From Lachnospiraceae bacterium (GTDB taxonomy: Bacteria > Bacillota > Clostridia > Lachnospirales > Lachnospiraceae), in assembly GCA_015057445.1 (NCBI GenBank), contig SVEI01000018.1:1-40314 (forward strand): DNA of 40,314 nt, written 5' to 3'. Positions 4,778 through 13,240 of this stretch are shown here, piece after piece; position 1 is the first letter of the stretch, and the number at the start of each line of letters is the position of its first letter. Below the pieces are notes generated by a model, which was not told where the DNA came from, did no database searches, and saw only the letters and a list, made by a program, of their open reading frames with translations. The position numbers were made by a program, and so were the translations under genes.

Positions 4778-5986
4778 TTATAAGCTTGCCTCAAGTGTAG
4801 TTCTAATAGCCTTAATAAAGTCCTCGCTATTAAGTACAGTAACATTCTCCAATGATGTAATAAGAGCTAAATCTTTAGTCATCTTTCCTTCCTCAATAGT
4901 CTTAATCGTTGCTGCCTCAAGCTTATCTGCAAATGTCATAAGCTCAGGAAGGTTGTCAAGTTCTCCACGCTTTCTTAATGCACCTGTCCACGCAAAAATA
5001 GTTGCAACTGAATTAGTTGAAGTCTCCTCACCAGCAAGATGCTTGTAGTAGTGTCTCTGAACGGTTCCGTGAGCTGCCTCATACTCGTACTTTCCATCTG
5101 GTGATACAAGCACTGAAGTCATCATAGCAAGCGAACCAAATGCTGATGAAACCATATCACTCATAACATCTCCATCGTAATTCTTACATGCCCAGATGTA
5201 TCCACCCTCTGACTTCATTACTCTTGCAACAGCATCGTCTATAAGTGTATAGAAGTACTCGATACCTGCTGCATCATACTTCTCCTTATACTCTGCATCA
5301 AAAATCTCCTGGAAGATATCCTTAAATGTATGGTCGTACTTCTTAGATATAGTGTCCTTAGTTGCAAACCAAAGTGTCTGCTTAGTATCAAGAGCATAGT
5401 TAAAGCAGCTTCTCGCAAAGCTCTCAATAGAACCATTAATATTATGCATACCCTGAATAATACCAGGCTCACTAAAATTATGTATAAGCTCTCTTATCTC
5501 AGTTCCATCCTCTGCTGTATATACAAGTTCTGCCTTACCAGCTGCTGGAATTTTCATCTCACTTGCCTTATACACATCACCATAAGCATGTCTTGCAATG
5601 GTAATAGGCTTCTTCCAATTCTTAACACATGGCTCAATACCCTTTACAATGATTGGTGCTCTAAATACAGTACCGTCAAGAATTGCACGAATTGTTCCAT
5701 TAGGACTCTTCCACATTTCCTTCAAATCATACTCTGTCATACGAGCAGCATTTGGAGTTATAGTTGCACACTTAACAGCAACTCCATACTTCTGTGTAGC
5801 GTAAGCTGAATCAAAGGTAACCTTATCATCGGTTTCATTTCTATACTGTAATCCAAGATCGTAATACTCTGACTTAAGATCAATAAAAGGATAAATAAGT
5901 TCATCCTTAATTATCTTCCAGAGAATTCTTGTCATCTCATCTCCATCCATCTCAACAAGCGGAGTAGTCATCTTTATCTTTTCCAT
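4778..5986 (-). CDS. icd: NADP-dependent isocitrate dehydrogenase
   Basis: It oxidatively decarboxylates isocitrate to 2-oxoglutarate. The 402-residue length and motifs such as MDGDEMTR near the N-terminus, KSPNGTIR (substrate serine region) and YEAAHGTV place it in the homodimeric, eukaryote-like NADP-IDH subfamily, not the E. coli Icd type. GGAGGC lies 6 bases before the ATG. The gene is convergent with citrate synthase and shares its terminator. The likely role is supplying 2-oxoglutarate and NADPH for biosynthesis. Confidence 0.95.
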
Positions 5987-7476: not shown

Positions 7477-7518
7477 TAAGTATATTTATACGGATTATAT
7501 ATTCTTATGGAGGGTATC

Positions 7519-7863
7519 ATGGAAGAAAAGAGAAAATATGAGCGACTTCCTATAAAGCTTAAGCTTGAGGTATCTAACCTTTTTAAGCAGGACGGAATCA
7601 AAATTGAAAACTTAGATAGCGAGATTGAAGTATTTGATATTTCCAAAGCTGGTATAGGCTTTATGTCAGATAGCAAGTTACCTATAGACTACTATTTTAA
7701 TGCAACTATTGAATTTGAGAATACAGATGAGATTATACTTTCAGTAGTTAAAATCCTTTACATCAAGTCTATTGGTGGCTCAGGATACAGATATGGATGT
7801 GAATTTGTAGGACTTCCTTCTATGTATCATCGTTTATTTGATGAATATGCTAAAAGTCTTTAA
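7519..7863 (+). CDS. PilZ domain protein (c-di-GMP binding)
   Basis: A 114-residue single-domain PilZ protein. Both halves of the c-di-GMP signature are present: RxxxR in KRKYERLP near residue 5 and DxSxxGxxF in FDISKAGIGF near residue 43. It probably acts as a cytoplasmic adaptor that changes partner binding when c-di-GMP is bound. The frame opens at an ATG at 7507, but that codon lies in the ribosome site GGAGGG used by the ATG at 7519, so the later start is preferred. No diguanylate cyclase, flagellar or pilus gene is in the window, so the target is unknown. Confidence 0.88.
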   Translation: MEEKRKYERLPIKLKLEVSNLFKQDGIKIENLDSEIEVFDISKAGIGFMSDSKLPIDYYFNATIEFENTDEIILSVVKILYIKSIGGSGYRYGCEFVGLPSMYHRLFDEYAKSL

Positions 7864-7889
7864 GATTTGTCATTGATTCATATATGCAT

Positions 7890-7937
7890 AAAAAACCCCA
7901 CTTAAAAACAAGTTATATTGTTCAAGTGGGGTTTTTT
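7890..7937. terminator. Bidirectional terminator between the PilZ and hsp20 genes
   Basis: AAAAAACCCCACTT (7890-7903) pairs perfectly with AAGTGGGGTTTTTT (7924-7937), with a secondary AACAA/TTGTT pairing inside the loop. T runs on both strands let it end both convergent transcripts. Confidence 0.92.
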
Positions 7938-7964
7938 GTGTTTATGCTAGTATTTGTTAATACT

Positions 7965-8360
7965 TTACTGAATAGGAATTAACTTTATATCATCTCTATC
8001 CACCGACTTCTGTGGATTTGTAATAATTATACTAAGTATACCATCCTTGTATGCTGCAGTTATATCTTCCTGCTTGATTTTTGTGCCTACAAAAAAGCTT
8101 CTCCTACAACTTGTAGCAAGTCTTTCCTTAAGAATATAATTAATTTTGGTATCATCCTTTTCTAAAGTTTCTGGTTTTGAAGCTATAATAGTAAGAGTTC
8201 CATCTACCAATTCAGCGGTTACATCTTCTCGAGAAAAACCTGGAATTTCAATTTCTAATAAATAATTTCCATCTCTCTCTTGGATATCTGTTCTCATCAT
8301 ATTAGGAATAGATACAGAAGCATTGTCAAATAAGTTAAATGTTTGGTTTTCAAATATCAT
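7965..8360 (-). CDS. Small heat-shock protein, Hsp20/alpha-crystallin family
   Basis: This ATP-independent holdase binds unfolding proteins and passes them to Hsp70. At 131 residues it is a typical small sHsp: a short N-terminal arm, an alpha-crystallin domain with the AxxxxGxL element (AAYKDGILSI), and a C-terminal I/L-x-I tail (LIPI) that drives oligomer assembly. AAGGAGG precedes the ATG. It lies 58 bases downstream of the Hsp70 gene on the same strand and before a strong terminator, so it is probably the last gene of the chaperone operon. Confidence 0.93.
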   Translation of the reverse strand: MIFENQTFNLFDNASVSIPNMMRTDIQERDGNYLLEIEIPGFSREDVTAELVDGTLTIIASKPETLEKDDTKINYILKERLATSCRRSFFVGTKIKQEDITAAYKDGILSIIITNPQKSVDRDDIKLIPIQ

Positions 8361-8418
8361 ATAACTACCTCCTTATATCATTCTACAATTTTACTGCTAT
8401 ATTAAATGCTACTAATAG

Positions 8419-10110
8419 TTACATATCCTCTTCCATAGCATCTAAAAACTCTTTCAATTCTTCCCTTGCCTGACTAATTGCGTTCTTGTCCTGTTTATCA
8501 AGAATCTCTTCAAACTGAGTCATTCTCTGTTGAATAAGTCTACGTCTATCTCCTGTAGCCTCCTCATACATCCTATCTCCTCTGAACATAAGAAGCTTGT
8601 TTTCTTCCTGATCTCTAGGATGAATTTTTAGACTCTCTAAAGCTTTCATTCGCTCTTCTATCTCAGCATCAGTCATGTCGTTATCTTCATTCTTAATAAT
8701 TACCTTCTTGGTAACTTTTGTGGATATAACCTTTACAATAACTTCTAATATAGAATTGACGTCATAAGTATATGTTACATCTACAGCTTCCTGACCAGAA
8801 GGTCCAACTGGAACTGCCACAACAATATCTCCTAGATATACATTATTTCTAGCATATCTGCTTTCTCCCTGAAGAATCTTCACTCTAATCTCACTTTGAT
8901 TGTCGCTAGCTGTATAAAGTCGCTCAGTTTTACTAGTTGGAATAACTGTGTTTCGCTCAATTATAGGAAGATAGTGTCCATTTTCTTTGTAGCCACCGCT
9001 TCTTGTAACAACAACCTCAGTACCTAGAGTAAACGGACATACATCTGTAAGTATTACCTCTCGTACAGCTTCATTTCTCTCTTTCATAGCAGCTTGAGTT
9101 GCTGCTCCAACTGCAACAACCTCATCTGGATTTATATCCGTATTAGGAAGACGTCCAAATAATCTGCTGACAAATCTTCTTACGATAGGAAGCTTAGTTG
9201 CTCCACCCACCATTATTACTTCATCAATATCTGCTAGCTTGATATTTGCATCCTTCAAACTTCTCTCTATAGGTCTTTTTATCTTTGCCAAAAGAAGCTG
9301 ACATGCTTTCTCGTAATCAGACAAAGAAACCTCATATTCATAGGTTTCCTCACCTATTTTACACTTCATGATGGAAGTCTTTCCATCTTCAAATCCTATC
9401 TTGCACGCTTCAGCTTGTTTTCTAATATGAACTCTTGTCTTAACATCTAGTTCATCTAAATCAATTTCATTATCCTTAGCAAACATTTGCTCAAGAATTT
9501 CTGTAAAATCCTCGCCTCCTAAGAAGTTATCACCTGCAACAGCTCTAACCTCCATAATATTATCATAAAGCTCAAGTATTGATACATCAAATGTACCTCC
9601 ACCCAAATCAAATACCAAAAATTTTGTATCTGCATTCTTCTTATCTAATCCATAAGCAATAGCTGCAGCTGTTGGCTCACTTACTATTCTCTCTACTACA
9701 AATCCAGCCAATTCTCCCGCTTTTTTTGTAGCCTTTCTTTGAGCATCATTGAAATAAGCTGGCACACTAATCACAGCCTCTTTGACTTCCTGTCCAAGAT
9801 ACGCTTCTGCGTCTTCCTTAAGTGACTTCAATATAAGGCTAGAAAGTTCTTCTGGAAGAAACTTTCTCTCCCCCAACTCATATTCCTTAGTAGACCCCAT
9901 ACTTCTTTTAAACACGTCCGCTGTCTCACTTGGATGAGTCTGTTTTCTTTCTTTTGCAGTTTTTCCCACATATACTGTACCATCAGCATCAATACTTACT
10001 ACTGATGGAGTCAAATTATCACCAAGCTTATTTGGAATAATCTTGGCTGTATCTTCATGGAAATAGCCTATCAAACTATTAGTTGTTCCTAAATCGATTC
10101 CTACTATCAT
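8419..10110 (-). CDS. Hsp70 family chaperone, short HscC-like form
   Basis: An ATP-driven chaperone of 563 residues. The nucleotide-binding domain is complete: GIDLGTTNS at 4-12, FDLGGGTFD at about 165-175 and VGGATKLP at about 300. A beta substrate-binding domain and a short helical tail rich in acidic residues follow. It is shorter than DnaK (about 610-640) and close in size to E. coli HscC. The start was set at the ATG at 10110, which overlaps the upstream TGA stop as ATGA; an upstream ATG at 10134 is inside the preceding gene. This tight coupling to a J-like/TPR gene says the two act together. It is a specialised paralogue, not the dnaKJ-grpE copy. Confidence 0.93.
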   Translation of the reverse strand: MIVGIDLGTTNSLIGYFHEDTAKIIPNKLGDNLTPSVVSIDADGTVYVGKTAKERKQTHPSETADVFKRSMGSTKEYELGERKFLPEELSSLILKSLKEDAEAYLGQEVKEAVISVPAYFNDAQRKATKKAGELAGFVVERIVSEPTAAAIAYGLDKKNADTKFLVFDLGGGTFDVSILELYDNIMEVRAVAGDNFLGGEDFTEILEQMFAKDNEIDLDELDVKTRVHIRKQAEACKIGFEDGKTSIMKCKIGEETYEYEVSLSDYEKACQLLLAKIKRPIERSLKDANIKLADIDEVIMVGGATKLPIVRRFVSRLFGRLPNTDINPDEVVAVGAATQAAMKERNEAVREVILTDVCPFTLGTEVVVTRSGGYKENGHYLPIIERNTVIPTSKTERLYTASDNQSEIRVKILQGESRYARNNVYLGDIVVAVPVGPSGQEAVDVTYTYDVNSILEVIVKVISTKVTKKVIIKNEDNDMTDAEIEERMKALESLKIHPRDQEENKLLMFRGDRMYEEATGDRRRLIQQRMTQFEEILDKQDKNAISQAREELKEFLDAMEEDM

Positions 10111-13100
10111 TTTCCTTCTATCCTCTTTAAACATTTTACGTACAAAGCATTATGTCCACATATAGACAAGGCTTGTTTATAACACAGCCTTGCGCTTTCA
10201 TAATCTTTCATCGCTTCATAGATAAGTCCTTTCTCATATAAAGCATCATGACAACTACTATAAAAGCATCCACTGCATCGCTTCATTTTAAATGCCTTAT
10301 CTATTATTACCATAGCTTCCTTATATTTTCTTAAAGCTCTATGAAGTCTAGACATATTAATACATGCATCTGGATTAGTCATATTTGTGGGTTCAACCAA
10401 TGCCTTTTGTACATACTTTTTTAAATCCTGTCGTAATGGATTCTTCTTTTTTATAACCTCTACTAATTCACTATAATAATTTTGTTTACAATCAATGTCA
10501 AGTTTTACAGCTGTTTCATAGTGCTTAACAGCTTGGTCATAAAGTCCGTTATCCCTAAAAACTTCTCCCATAATTCCATAAAACTCTGCTTGATTTCCAA
10601 AACGATTTATAGCTAATTGAAATGTCTCGTTTGCTCTGCTAAGATATCCTTCTTCTCCATATATCGAAATAAGGCTGACTACACATTGTTTTACATTTTC
10701 ATCATAGTCGAATTTGTTGATACACTCCTCTAAAACCTTAGTGGCATAATTTATATCTCCCATTCTAAGCGAAAGTTCAGCTAAATCATAGCCAACATCT
10801 GGATTTAAACCAAACTCTTCGATGTACATATCGTATACTACCTTGCTATCGTCAAAACGATTCATACATTGCAAAGTTCTGGCTTTATATATATATAGTT
10901 GAGATTTTGCCGAATCATCACCTGTGAATTTTAAAGCTATATCATAATTATCTAAAGCCTTACAAAACTCTCTATGAGTCTCATATATTAGACCAATTCG
11001 ACTGTAACAAAAACCATTTTCAGGATCTAATTTTATAGCTTCTTCAAAATCCTCCAATGCACTCTTATATCTCTTGAAAAATCTGTTAAGTGTACCACGA
11101 TTAACATAAGAAATAACATCTGGAGCAATTTCAATTTGTCTGGTAAACATATCCATGGATTTAGTAAGTTTTCCTTGATTTTTTAGGATGATTCCCATCC
11201 TTCCACAAACATTTTTGTGATTAGGCTCTAGTTTTAATAGCTCCTCATATATCTCTAATGCTCTCTGTGACTTACCACTCATCTCATTGCAAAATGCTTT
11301 AAGTTCCATAAGTTTCACAGGGTTATCAAAATCCGTAGGATTTTCGTTGCTACTAACATTTACCGTATCTAATATTTTTATAGCCTCCTCATACTTATCC
11401 TCTGCCACTAATATTTTACCTTGACAATAATTCATTCTGTCACTGTCAATCTCCATTGCCTTGTACCTTTCTACAACACCTCTTGCACCTTCAATTTGAT
11501 TGAATTTCAGATACACTCCTATCTGTGTTTCATAAGGTTCTGCAATATATGGATATATTTCCATAGCTTTACTAGAAGCATCTATAGCTTCTTTGATAAA
11601 TTCTAACTTAAGACTAGCTTTACTTTTATAATTATATGCTATAAAACTACGTTTTTCTCTATCCAATAAGGCTTCACATACTTCTATGCATTTGCCATAG
11701 TTCTTAGTTTCATATTCTAGCTCACACATTGCTTCATAAGCCAAAACAATCTCATCATGTTCCATAGATAAAGCTATTTCTAAATACTTCCTAGCTATTT
11801 CATAATCTTTTATTTTAAGATAACAATCACCAATCAGAAAATTAACATAGCCATATCTTTTTTTCTTGTCCTTAGCTTCCTTACTCTCATCATCAGCTGG
11901 TATGGCTTCAATAGCTGATTTCCAAGTTCCAAAACACTGTAAAGCCTGATTATACTGATTAAGACATAGATATACTCTTCCCTTTAGGTTATTATACTCA
12001 CATATCTGTGCTTCATCTGGCTCAAATCCATCCAAATAAGTAATTGCATCCTTAAACTTATATATCTGATACAGTGACCAGCTAATCTCCATAGGAATTT
12101 TTTTATCCTGTGGATTTTCCTTATAATCATTCTCTAATTCCTTGATTAATTCTGTATTTGCTCGAATCATTCCTGTCCTAGCACTGTTATCATAGTGATT
12201 AATTCTAAGCAATTCCATAAATATATCCCTGGATTTTGCATACTCGCCTATACACATCTTTTGTTCGGCAATCTTGCCTTTCATTACATAATTATCAGGC
12301 TTAATCTCCAATGCTTTTTCATAATATTCCCCCGCATCTTCGTAATCACCTAAAAGCAACTTAATATCTCCACATATTCCCATAAAATTAATATCTTCAG
12401 GAAAGTCTGAGTGTAGTATAATTGCATCTTGAAACAAATCCTCGTACACACTCTTCCTGTTTTCTAATTCATTTTCTGTTTCTTGTTCAATATCTATATT
12501 TTCAAATTCTTGTAATCTTGACTTAATTTTGAGCATCTCAAAATAAGGGTGATACACATCCATATCACCAATTAAGTTAATCAATTTCTTTTGTTCTTGA
12601 TACTCATGCTTTCTTATTGCCAAATCCAGTCTAAAATACCTGTCTAAAAAGGTATCAGCCACATCGTCCCTACATTCTAACAAGGAGAAATCGAGCACAT
12701 CATCATATATTGAATTATTAATGACATACTCTATAAAATTTTCTGGATAGATTTCAGACAATTCTTTATATCTAGCCTCTATATCAAATCGCTCTACAAT
12801 CAATCTCCAAACATCCTTTGGCACAAAAAACTTGTCCATAAGAAACCTAATAAGAACATCAAATGAATCTTGAGAGCTATCCAAGGCTACAAACTCATCT
12901 CTATCTAATAATTCCTCCCACTCCATAACACTTATTCTTCTAGAATAATTGTTATATACTGATTTTATCTCTCTAAGTAAATTTGAATCATCAGTTAAAT
13001 CTTCTCTATCACCCATTACTTCTGCAAGTCTTAGCGCTTCCTCATAAGCTTCTCTAAGACGCATGAAACCTTCTGGATCATCCTCTGGATTCACAGTTTT

Positions 13101-13178
13101 TAATTGTTTTCGATATGCAATTTTAAGCATTTCCTTATCCTTGGTTTCATCACATCCAAGAATTTCCCAAATCATCAT
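10107..13178 (-). CDS. Giant TPR protein with degenerate N-terminal J-like domain
   Basis: A 1023-residue cytoplasmic protein. Residues 2-50 look like a J domain (WEILGCDET at 4-12, then AYRKQLK and a helix with GFMRLREAYEEAL). The HPD tripeptide that triggers Hsp70 ATPase is replaced by Asn30-Pro31-Glu32. From about residue 260 to the end are many TPR units of about 34 residues (for example AGEYYEKALEIKPDN), a surface for protein binding. The C-terminus holds a cysteine/histidine cluster (C968, C971, C976, H977, C999, C1007, H1009, C1016). GGAGG lies 6 bases before the ATG. It overlaps the Hsp70 start by 4 bases. The function is inferred as a client adaptor or regulator for that Hsp70, comparable with the DjlB/DjlC partners of HscC. 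Confidence 0.88.
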   Translation of the reverse strand: MMIWEILGCDETKDKEMLKIAYRKQLKTVNPEDDPEGFMRLREAYEEALRLAEVMGDREDLTDDSNLLREIKSVYNNYSRRISVMEWEELLDRDEFVALDSSQDSFDVLIRFLMDKFFVPKDVWRLIVERFDIEARYKELSEIYPENFIEYVINNSIYDDVLDFSLLECRDDVADTFLDRYFRLDLAIRKHEYQEQKKLINLIGDMDVYHPYFEMLKIKSRLQEFENIDIEQETENELENRKSVYEDLFQDAIILHSDFPEDINFMGICGDIKLLLGDYEDAGEYYEKALEIKPDNYVMKGKIAEQKMCIGEYAKSRDIFMELLRINHYDNSARTGMIRANTELIKELENDYKENPQDKKIPMEISWSLYQIYKFKDAITYLDGFEPDEAQICEYNNLKGRVYLCLNQYNQALQCFGTWKSAIEAIPADDESKEAKDKKKRYGYVNFLIGDCYLKIKDYEIARKYLEIALSMEHDEIVLAYEAMCELEYETKNYGKCIEVCEALLDREKRSFIAYNYKSKASLKLEFIKEAIDASSKAMEIYPYIAEPYETQIGVYLKFNQIEGARGVVERYKAMEIDSDRMNYCQGKILVAEDKYEEAIKILDTVNVSSNENPTDFDNPVKLMELKAFCNEMSGKSQRALEIYEELLKLEPNHKNVCGRMGIILKNQGKLTKSMDMFTRQIEIAPDVISYVNRGTLNRFFKRYKSALEDFEEAIKLDPENGFCYSRIGLIYETHREFCKALDNYDIALKFTGDDSAKSQLYIYKARTLQCMNRFDDSKVVYDMYIEEFGLNPDVGYDLAELSLRMGDINYATKVLEECINKFDYDENVKQCVVSLISIYGEEGYLSRANETFQLAINRFGNQAEFYGIMGEVFRDNGLYDQAVKHYETAVKLDIDCKQNYYSELVEVIKKKNPLRQDLKKYVQKALVEPTNMTNPDACINMSRLHRALRKYKEAMVIIDKAFKMKRCSGCFYSSCHDALYEKGLIYEAMKDYESARLCYKQALSICGHNALYVKCLKRIEGK

Positions 13179-13210: not shown

Positions 13211-13240
13211 AAGGACGAGGTAAATGAACTCCTCGTCCTT
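13211..13240 (-). terminator. Possible terminator after the rfbD-like gene
   Basis: A perfect 10-base inverted repeat AAGGACGAGG/CCTCGTCCTT encloses a 10-base loop, 15 bases after the rfbD-like stop. The T tract after it on the minus strand is poor (ATCCTTTAGTTT), so termination may be partial and some transcripts may read on into the chaperone operon. No good promoter is visible between this hairpin and the TPR gene. Confidence 0.5.

Follow-up and report, generated by a model that had tools for sequence, protein, structure and literature searches.

The window analysed here, a stretch of 40,314 nucleotides from a Lachnospiraceae bacterium, encodes a long TPR protein with a J-like N-terminus in which Asn-Pro-Glu (NPE) stands at the position of the HPD motif of J proteins. 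The neighbouring gene encodes an Hsp70. The locus thus raises the question of whether NPE is a broken motif or a variant that still acts on this Hsp70.

Locus layout

The features discussed below are the following.

10107-13178, minus strand: J-TPR co-chaperone gene, 1023 aa
13017-13178, minus strand: DjlB/DjlC-type J domain, J-TPR residues 1-54 (Pfam DnaJ, AlphaFold helices)
13083-13091, minus strand: Asn-Pro-Glu (J-TPR residues 30-32) at the HPD position, codons AAT CCA GAG
12918-12938, minus strand: R-x5-W element 3' of the J domain (R81, W87)
10116-12983, minus strand: predicted all-helical hairpin array, residues 66-1021 (AlphaFold; Pfam TPR from about residue 253)
10251-10277, minus strand: C-x2-C-x4-C cluster (C968, C971, C976), C-terminal, in the loop that joins two predicted helices
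8419-10110, minus strand: HscC-type Hsp70 gene, 563 aa, its ATG within an ATGA that overlaps the J-TPR stop
7965-8360, minus strand: Hsp20 small heat-shock protein (sHsp) gene (Pfam), 131 aa, a clade-limited third gene
about 7887-7940, minus strand: terminator hairpin 3' of the sHsp gene (folding energy)
about 13211-13240, minus strand: hairpin separating an rmlD-like gene from the J-TPR gene (folding energy)

A preliminary description of this DNA had reported a J-like TPR protein of 1023 residues with NPE at the HPD site, an ATGA overlap with a 563-residue Hsp70, then an Hsp20 gene and a strong terminator. Gene, codons and coordinates bear this out. The 61 nt that contain the terminator hairpin fold at -24.3 kcal/mol (z = -6.5); the hairpin is missing from the list produced by a simple consensus scan. 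The mechanically longest reading frame of the Hsp70 starts at 10134 and gives 571 aa, against 563 aa from the ATGA start. Pfam searches of the three genes gave 442 bits for HSP70, 52 bits for HSP20 and many TPR models.

An rmlD-like gene is found upstream of the J-TPR gene. Since a second hairpin lies between the two (z = -2.5 for the whole 71-nt stretch), the J-TPR, Hsp70 and Hsp20 genes probably constitute a transcription unit of their own. Heat-shock control was considered and rejected: we found no CIRCE-like site with up to three mismatches allowed, and CtsR-like sites were rarer than expected by chance. A role as a defence system was likewise discarded, as PADLOC gave only two weak generic TPR matches and one weak match to a candidate-system model.

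J domain

The J-like N-terminus was predicted by AlphaFold to have the helix order of a J domain, helix I followed by a II/III hairpin. The helices span residues 2-7, 15-26 and 35-62, placing the motif in the II-III loop, and pLDDT over blocks of residues 1-50 is 86-92 (80-85 in the full-length model). The Pfam DnaJ match covers residues 4-46 with E = 1.3e-4 and 22.5 bits, which is under the curated cut-off of 27.8. Foldseek aligned the J model to solved J domains with probabilities of 0.84-0.99 at E-values of 0.6-2.7; it gave no match of the model at E 0.001 or better, and the P58IPK structure 2y4t was among its matches (E 2.2).

With hhalign, a region comprising the J domain and more matched E. 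coli DjlB (98.8%, E 1e-16). Profiles of the post-J region alone scored no higher against DjlB and DjlC than five shuffles did. The R-x5-W element behind the J domain, however, is also present in E. coli DjlB and DjlC. It occurs in 113 of 116 NPE proteins (4.6 expected) and in 14 of 22 HPE rows (0.4 expected), two of the 22 being DjlB and DjlC themselves. Among 84 non-redundant long J proteins, conservation of the R81 and W87 columns is 1.00 after rounding, and the J domain is better conserved than any other part of the protein, with a mean of 0.63 over the first 40 residues versus 0.24-0.53 elsewhere.

Hsp70 partner

The preliminary description had called the Hsp70 HscC-sized. Its length indeed falls inside the range of 550-580 aa given for HscC in PMC8215388. 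Based on shared internal indels, we assign it to HscC. Every internal deletion of at least three residues by which E. coli HscC differs from E. coli DnaK (79-102, 208-211, 244-247, 286-291, 532-538 and 554-557) is also present here, and insertions occur at the same places, after 385 and 404; the latter, in L1,2 of the SBD, is +9 in the window protein and +4 in E. coli HscC. Identity is 41.5% to E. coli HscC versus 35.6% to the DnaK of the same genome. Unlike DnaK, the protein thus lacks the GrpE-signature loop around position 290, where GrpE makes contact, the D208-D211 loop of the NBD and parts of helix B (532-538 and 554-557). HscC-like bit scores in the phylum sample fall from 671 to 488 with none between, and family matches at 542-690 bits are less certain members.

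As in the DnaK/DnaJ/GrpE system, the window Hsp70 keeps P143, R167, E171, D393 and L484 (DnaK numbering). Among 74 non-redundant Hsp70s encoded beside NPE proteins, R167, V218, D393 and P419 are kept in all, E206 and E217 in 73, L391 in 71 and Q378 in 65. The K48-D477 salt bridge of the DnaK pair is impossible here, the residues being Met39 (by-eye alignment) and Thr448. That the Hsp70 residues touching HPD are conserved would fit a variant motif that makes the usual stimulating contact better than the non-standard or regulatory contact of the preliminary description.

Pairing of the genes

We found 140 pairs of adjoining, same-strand J and HscC-like Hsp70 genes, a redundant set that takes in genomes reached via two collections; the named-genome scan contributed from its best 80 matches. 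In 299 genomes of the family, 48 had both genes, one only J-TPR, 13 only the Hsp70 and 237 neither, so that an HscC-like Hsp70 is present in 48 of 49 J-TPR genomes. Eleven of the 13 Hsp70-only genomes have matches of only 551-688 bits. The J-TPR search threshold of E <= 1e-20 missed at least one genome (G257), whose NPE-bearing J-TPR (L137) was read later. Among 162 stretches examined, 11 had an HscC-like Hsp70 for which no J gene was found, five of these being short contigs, with a detector that was trained on the window protein, DjlB and DjlC and then iterated, and that would therefore miss very divergent J domains. Conversely, nine rows are NPE proteins without an adjoining Hsp70, three of them short or broken frames.

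The gene neighbourhoods argue strongly for a dedicated J/HscC pair. Of the dedicated chaperone machine proposed earlier, the pair thus stands, by linkage and by the HscC indels, and the conserved set of three genes does not: an sHsp gene adjoins the Hsp70 in only eight of the 140 pairs, two of these from one genome. The sHsp is a clade-limited extra. When 801 neighbouring reading frames from 94 loci were clustered for a third conserved partner, the widest cluster was an NADP-isocitrate dehydrogenase at 18 loci, which we read as local synteny and rejected as a partner.

NPE motif

In the 140 paired J genes, again counted redundantly, the motif is NPE in 116, HPE in 20 and another sequence in four, and HPD was read in none. 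Odd motifs in a few pairs are SPE in L136, DQD in L151, NNN in L157 and NPV in L175. NPE is thus kept in homologues and is not a local mutation, a distinction the preliminary description had left to an alignment. In the 84 long J proteins, conservation is 1.00 for P31, 0.99 for E32 and 0.89 for N30.

The Hsp70 tree comprises 95 non-redundant rows, among them the window protein and E. coli HscC. On it, the codon of residue 30 shows at least three Asn/His exchanges and at least 20 synonymous third-base changes, and by these counts the motif is under purifying selection. Being guarded by evolution, NPE is probably a working variant and not a broken motif. It should be noted that this is a quick tree with an unsure root, and that E. 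coli HscC, L151, L149 and DnaK form long branches; as rooted, it would imply a change from HPE to NPE, with reversion to HPE on two branches. The departure from HPD is itself half known, since the partners of E. coli HscC carry HPE.

TPR array and cysteine cluster

By prediction, the 1023-residue protein joins a J domain of the DjlB/DjlC type to a long TPR superhelix. A TM-like segment (hydropathy >1.9) is absent from J-TPR and from all 116 NPE proteins. The highest 19-residue hydropathy is 0.82 in J-TPR, compared with 2.39 in DjlB and 1.99 in DjlC, both near the C-termini. Eight of 11 paired J proteins shorter than 800 aa have such a segment, as called from hydropathy alone; two of the 11, L139 and L151, are truncated frames or extend into masked sequence.

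The loop that carries the cysteine cluster is 12 residues long and joins two of the final helices in the prediction. A C-terminal cluster is present in 103 of 116 NPE proteins, compared with 2.6% of shuffled C-termini. The missing TM-like segment and the C-terminal cluster of the NPE proteins are, we suggest, new features.

Proposed mechanism and alternatives

We consider it likely that the product of the locus is a dedicated, soluble HscC machine in which the J-TPR co-chaperone triggers the ATPase of its own HscC. The sequences would best be read as a soluble, TPR-bearing offshoot of the DjlC/HscC system in which NPE still drives its Hsp70. In brief, the J domain would dock on the NBD, linker and SBD of HscC. 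Asn30 would replace His33 in a hydrogen bond to the backbone of linker Leu354 (DnaK L391), Glu32 would replace Asp35 in contacting Arg141 and Gln339 (DnaK R167 and Q378), and docking would trigger ATP hydrolysis. The TPR superhelix may supply a client or docking partner, replacing the membrane tail anchor of DjlB and DjlC. Nucleotide exchange may be independent of GrpE, since the loop that contacts GrpE is missing, as it is from HscC. The sHsp, where present, may hold clients for the same machine. Speaking against this reading, E. coli HscC is recounted in PMC8910936 as showing no ATP-dependent binding or refolding of clients, and perturbed allostery is speculated there.

Against a working NPE, an H-to-Q change abolishes J function in the DnaK-type systems tested (PMC8215388; PMC13254874), and the latter, a 2026 review, names HPE as the sole replacement seemingly tolerated. 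The NPE protein could instead be a regulatory pseudo-J of type IV, like Pam16, that recruits, holds or blocks HscC while an HPD protein of the cell stimulates it; the same genome has two, DnaJ and a 260-aa J protein. We regard this as unlikely, though the least so of the three alternatives. According to PMC8215388, DnaJ and CbpA do not stimulate E. coli HscC. P31 and E32 are nearly invariant, the Hsp70 retains its residues facing P and D/E, and the two returns to HPE fit a working site, though the root is uncertain. If instead the J domain now served the TPR scaffold purely as a structural cap, NPE could drift almost neutrally, and the odd motifs in a few pairs agree with this. Such drift, already disfavoured, is highly improbable, given at least 20 third-base against three amino-acid changes at the Asn/His codon and a J domain that is the best conserved part of the protein. 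In addition, the L151 pair looks as if it decays together, its motif being lost along with R167, although this is one case and L157 retains R167.

The protein might also be mainly a metal or redox sensor, with the cysteine cluster binding zinc or another thiophilic metal and gating the contact between J domain and HscC. The frequency and loop position of the cluster speak for this, as does the cadmium sensitivity of E. coli lacking hscC, or both djlB and djlC (PMC8215388). The cluster of the window protein has three cysteines only, however, no fixed fourth ligand was seen in the alignment, and the cluster is missing from 10 of 11 long HPE and 13 of 116 NPE proteins, which leaves a primary sensor role very improbable.

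DnaK position 170 is Ser in the window Hsp70 and its first 15 relatives and Asn in E. coli HscC, a difference that at first resembled a compensating change for NPE. A strict coupling of NPE with N170S was rejected, as the combinations are mixed (redundant counts: NPE/Ser 106, NPE/Asn 10, HPE/Ser 14, HPE/Asn 6) and the three independent tree pairs mostly lack a difference in the second trait. Twelve Hsp70 columns are fixed differently between the HPE clade (L198-L208 except L203 and L204; six non-redundant rows) and 13 NPE relatives. Residue 181 of the window Hsp70, adjoining the E206 contact, is a weak lead for a compensating position: it is Gln in the HPE clade and Arg in a second HPE lineage (L204), and its equivalent is Lys or Arg also in five of 74 NPE partners.

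Comparison with known systems

The window system shares with E. coli HscC and DjlB/DjlC the type of Hsp70, the J domain type with a non-HPD motif ending in Pro-Glu, and closely placed J and Hsp70 genes. It differs in having Asn in place of His, and in a J protein of twice the length with a TPR superhelix and a cysteine cluster. Furthermore, djlC and hscC are encoded on opposite strands, whereas the window genes overlap by 4 bases. Type IV J proteins, in which HPD is non-conservatively replaced (Pam16, DNAJB13; PMC13254874), likewise have a J fold whose HPD site is altered; J-TPR, in contrast, keeps Pro and an acidic residue, and its NPE has been retained by purifying selection across a large clade in a gene paired with its own Hsp70. 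Compared with DnaJ, J-TPR gave no match to the other DnaJ domains among the best 25 of 35 Pfam families.

P58IPK/DNAJC3 and DNAJC7 are eukaryotic TPR J-proteins, and they too join a TPR array to a J domain. The window J domain, however, is N-terminal, lacks HPD and is followed by about 950 residues of helical hairpins, and we found no evidence that the two combinations share descent.

Implications

The two-gene NPE machine is carried by some gut bacteria, Lachnospiraceae and their kin.

On balance, we favour the view that an Hsp70 can be switched by a second working "password", NPE, a natural histidine-free J motif selected through a clade of soluble HscC co-chaperones in which a TPR superhelix with a C-terminal cysteine cluster replaces the membrane anchor. 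If so, the HPD rule would be a rule for DnaK-type Hsp70s and not for J proteins as such. The family is one in which His to Asn is kept by purifying selection, the likely Hsp70 partner is known from gene pairing, and HPE sister proteins serve as natural controls; the question can therefore be tested directly with purified proteins. Lachnospiraceae and bacteria related to them would provide a soluble form of HscC, whose task is little known.

Organization of the locus and its genome

The three chaperone genes lie on the minus strand of the window and probably form an operon:

10107-13178, minus strand: J-TPR gene, 1023 aa
8419-10110, minus strand: Hsp70 gene, 563 aa, with its start within the J-TPR stop (ATGA)
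7965-8360, minus strand: Hsp20 gene, 131 aa

A strong terminator hairpin (z = -6.5) follows the Hsp20 gene. A plus-strand ORF of 118 aa (7507-7863) runs convergent with the operon; its match to PilZ, at 20.8 bits, falls short of the 22.5-bit cut-off. Among 18 related loci, 17 have an NADP-isocitrate dehydrogenase gene upstream of J-TPR and on the same strand (median distance 58 bases, all 18 counted); in the window this gene (4778-5986) is found 2.4 kb downstream instead.

The window genome (82% complete) also encodes a normal DnaK and DnaJ and a 260-aa J protein, the latter two both with the HPD motif. A second NPE copy of the J-TPR gene, with the motif NPEDN, is located on another contig (G000:C52:3511-6400, locus L041). 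This copy is split: a J part of 204 aa and a TPR part of 769 aa are read in different frames that overlap. The 12 kb read there contains no Hsp70. It is a broken gene, a split pair or an assembly error.

The Hsp70 is an HscC

On sequence grounds we assign the window Hsp70 to HscC. In a 96-row alignment including E. coli DnaK and HscC, it differs from DnaK by deletions of residues 79-102, 208-211, 244-247, 286-291, 532-538 and 554-557 and by insertions after residues 385 and 404, and E. coli HscC has every one of these at identical places. The 79-102 deletion is not diagnostic, since the cell's own DnaK has it too. PMC8215388 counts the GrpE loop, the D211 loop, the L1,2 insertion and the helix-B deletion among the features of HscC. 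The window Hsp70 is 41% identical to HscC and 36% identical to the cell's own DnaK. The places of the indels are shared with the E. coli system; in the J motif, the window J-TPR protein has Asn for the His of DjlB and DjlC, which are both HPE.

Predicted structure of the J-TPR protein

The preliminary description likened the N-terminus to a J domain, and structure prediction agrees. The AlphaFold2 model (19 rows, 259 residues, mean pLDDT 90.8) has the helix order of a J domain, with helices at 2-7, 15-26 and 35-62 and NPE (30-32) in a loop. A Foldseek search with this model gave no match at E 0.001; it retrieved several solved J domains with probabilities of 0.84-0.99, TM (target) scores of 0.39-0.61 and E-values of 0.6-2.7, which are high because the J domain makes up little of the model. 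Pfam DnaJ matched 18 of the 19 alignment members at E <= 0.01, the window's own match being below the cut-off. For the entire protein (27 rows, mean pLDDT 90.6) the model predicts helical hairpins from 66 to 1021.

NPE is the family state

It had been proposed to check whether homologues share the NPE motif, and most of them do. Among 140 J genes adjoining an HscC-like Hsp70, a redundant set, 116 encode NPE, 20 HPE, one each SPE, NPV, NNN and DQD, and none HPD. Of these pairs, 75 were collected by scanning named genomes with the Hsp70 C-terminus as anchor and are therefore not picked by J motif; drawn from the best 80 loci, they comprise 65 NPE and 10 HPE, and no J gene was found in the other 5 loci. 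Named NPE members include Catenibacillus scindens, Eubacterium ruminantium and Anaeromicropila populeti. Five HPD rows, two of them from one genome, occur in the stretches read, none directly beside HscC.

Locus L059 (6550-9525) holds a solo long J-TPR gene with HPE and no adjoining Hsp70; its genome, G111, has an NPE/HscC pair elsewhere (L164). In two sister J/HscC pairs, L151 (2631-4795) and L157 (4969-7952), the motif is wholly lost (DQD and NNN). The L151 Hsp70 has R167 replaced by Gly and Q378 by Tyr, and the L157 Hsp70 keeps R167; the L151 J frame runs into masked bases.

Linkage of the three genes

The preliminary description regarded the three genes as a linked set; the J/Hsp70 pairing stands and the Hsp20 gene drops out. 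A search of 299 family genomes found J-TPR in 49: both genes were present in 48, J-TPR only in 1, the HscC-like Hsp70 only in 13 and neither in 237 (Fisher p = 3e-42, kinship ignored). In the sole J-TPR-only genome, G205, both genes are in pieces. Of the 13 Hsp70-only genomes, 11 have only Hsp70 matches of 551-688 bits, and one, G257, in fact carries an NPE J-TPR (L137) that the search threshold excluded. HscC-like Hsp70s were found in 34 of 344 genomes of the order (E <= 1e-160) and in 9 of 398 genomes of the phylum (>= 671 bits), the other 68 listed phylum genomes being below 490 bits and read as DnaK. The J gene precedes the Hsp70 gene in 123 of the 140 pairs; 11 of the 17 reversed pairs have a motif other than NPE. 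An sHsp gene adjoins the Hsp70 in 8 of the 140 rows, two of which (L044 and L187) are one genome, and is a local addition.

Selection on the motif and conservation of its putative Hsp70 contact

The sequences indicate that the NPE motif is under purifying selection and not in decay. Across 84 non-redundant long J proteins, conservation is 1.00 for P31, 0.99 for E32, 0.93 for D33 and 0.89 for N30, and 1.00 for F38 and R42; the value of 1.00 for Asn in the codon-comparison set reflects the choice of rows. On an Hsp70 tree built by a quick method (95 rows and a DnaK outgroup), Asn and His were exchanged at least 3 times, and third-base changes number at least 20 in the Asn/His codon, 18 in the Glu codon and 37 in the Pro codon. 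As Asn and His codons are one base apart, mutational distance would not account for the rarity of the exchange. Rooted on DnaK, the deep branches would be HPE, with a single switch to NPE and two reversals to HPE within the NPE clade (L204, and the clade L198-L208 without L203 and L204).

In the DnaK-DnaJ complex, as described in PMC8215388, HPD is touched by R167, Q378, L391 and P419. The window Hsp70 has R, Q, L and P at these positions (DnaK numbering), and the 74 non-redundant NPE partners keep them in 74, 65, 71 and 74 cases, respectively. E206 and E217 are each kept in 73 of the 74 and V218 in all; residues D208-D211 are missing, and each of the 74 has Thr in place of D477. N170 (window residue 144), which is Asn in E. 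coli DnaK, E. coli HscC and the cell's own DnaK, is Ser in 65 of 74 NPE and 11 of 16 HPE partners (non-redundant).

Topology and a cysteine cluster

The pattern of TM-like segments and a Cys cluster are two features beyond the earlier finding. A TM-like segment is present in 8 of the 11 paired J proteins below 800 aa (7 HPE and the NNN protein) and likewise in DjlB and DjlC. None was found in the 116 NPE proteins, all of at least 800 frame residues, and of the 129 long proteins just one, with SPE, exceeds a hydropathy of 1.9. Judging from these segments, the long TPR proteins are probably soluble. Motif and topology are not strictly tied, since the HPE forms in L204 and in the L198-L208 clade are likewise long and have no such segment.

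A C-x2-C-x3-6-C cluster, mostly 53-63 residues from the C-terminus, is found in 103 of 116 NPE proteins, 1 of 11 long HPE proteins and 1 NPV protein (shuffled ends, 2.6%). In the window it is located as follows:

10251-10277: C-x2-C-x4-C (C968, C971, C976), in a loop of 12 residues between two predicted helices near the J-TPR C-terminus

The cluster is possibly a metal or redox site. It is absent from the HPE clade L198-L208 and also from the NPE neighbour L213, so its loss is not strictly tied to the motif. About 50 residues after the motif, R-x5-W occurs in 113 of 116 NPE and 14 of 22 HPE proteins, the latter including DjlB and DjlC (4.6 and 0.4 expected). This may point to a relationship that extends past the J domain, though a profile comparison of the post-J region was not significant.

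Proposed mechanism

The motif of the Lachnospiraceae J-TPR lies one step beyond HPE, with His changed to Asn. On structural grounds, the Asn could supply the hydrogen bond that His33 makes to the linker backbone, and the Glu could reach Arg167 and Gln378. The TPR superhelix most likely stands in for the membrane anchor that places the machine in E. coli. Nucleotide exchange is probably unaided because the GrpE loop is missing. Counter-evidence comes from E. coli HscC, for which an absence of ATP-dependent client binding or refolding is reported, as recounted in PMC8910936.

The HscC/J-TPR NPE family is not named in the open literature searched; the bacterial J-protein survey of Barriot et al. 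2020 (cited in PMC8215388) may list such proteins. The locus represents a known system in a variant form that is conserved and kept by purifying selection. We consider it fairly likely, from the sequence comparisons, that NPE is a working J motif of this HscC, and the NPE/HscC pair allows the HPD rule to be tested clearly.
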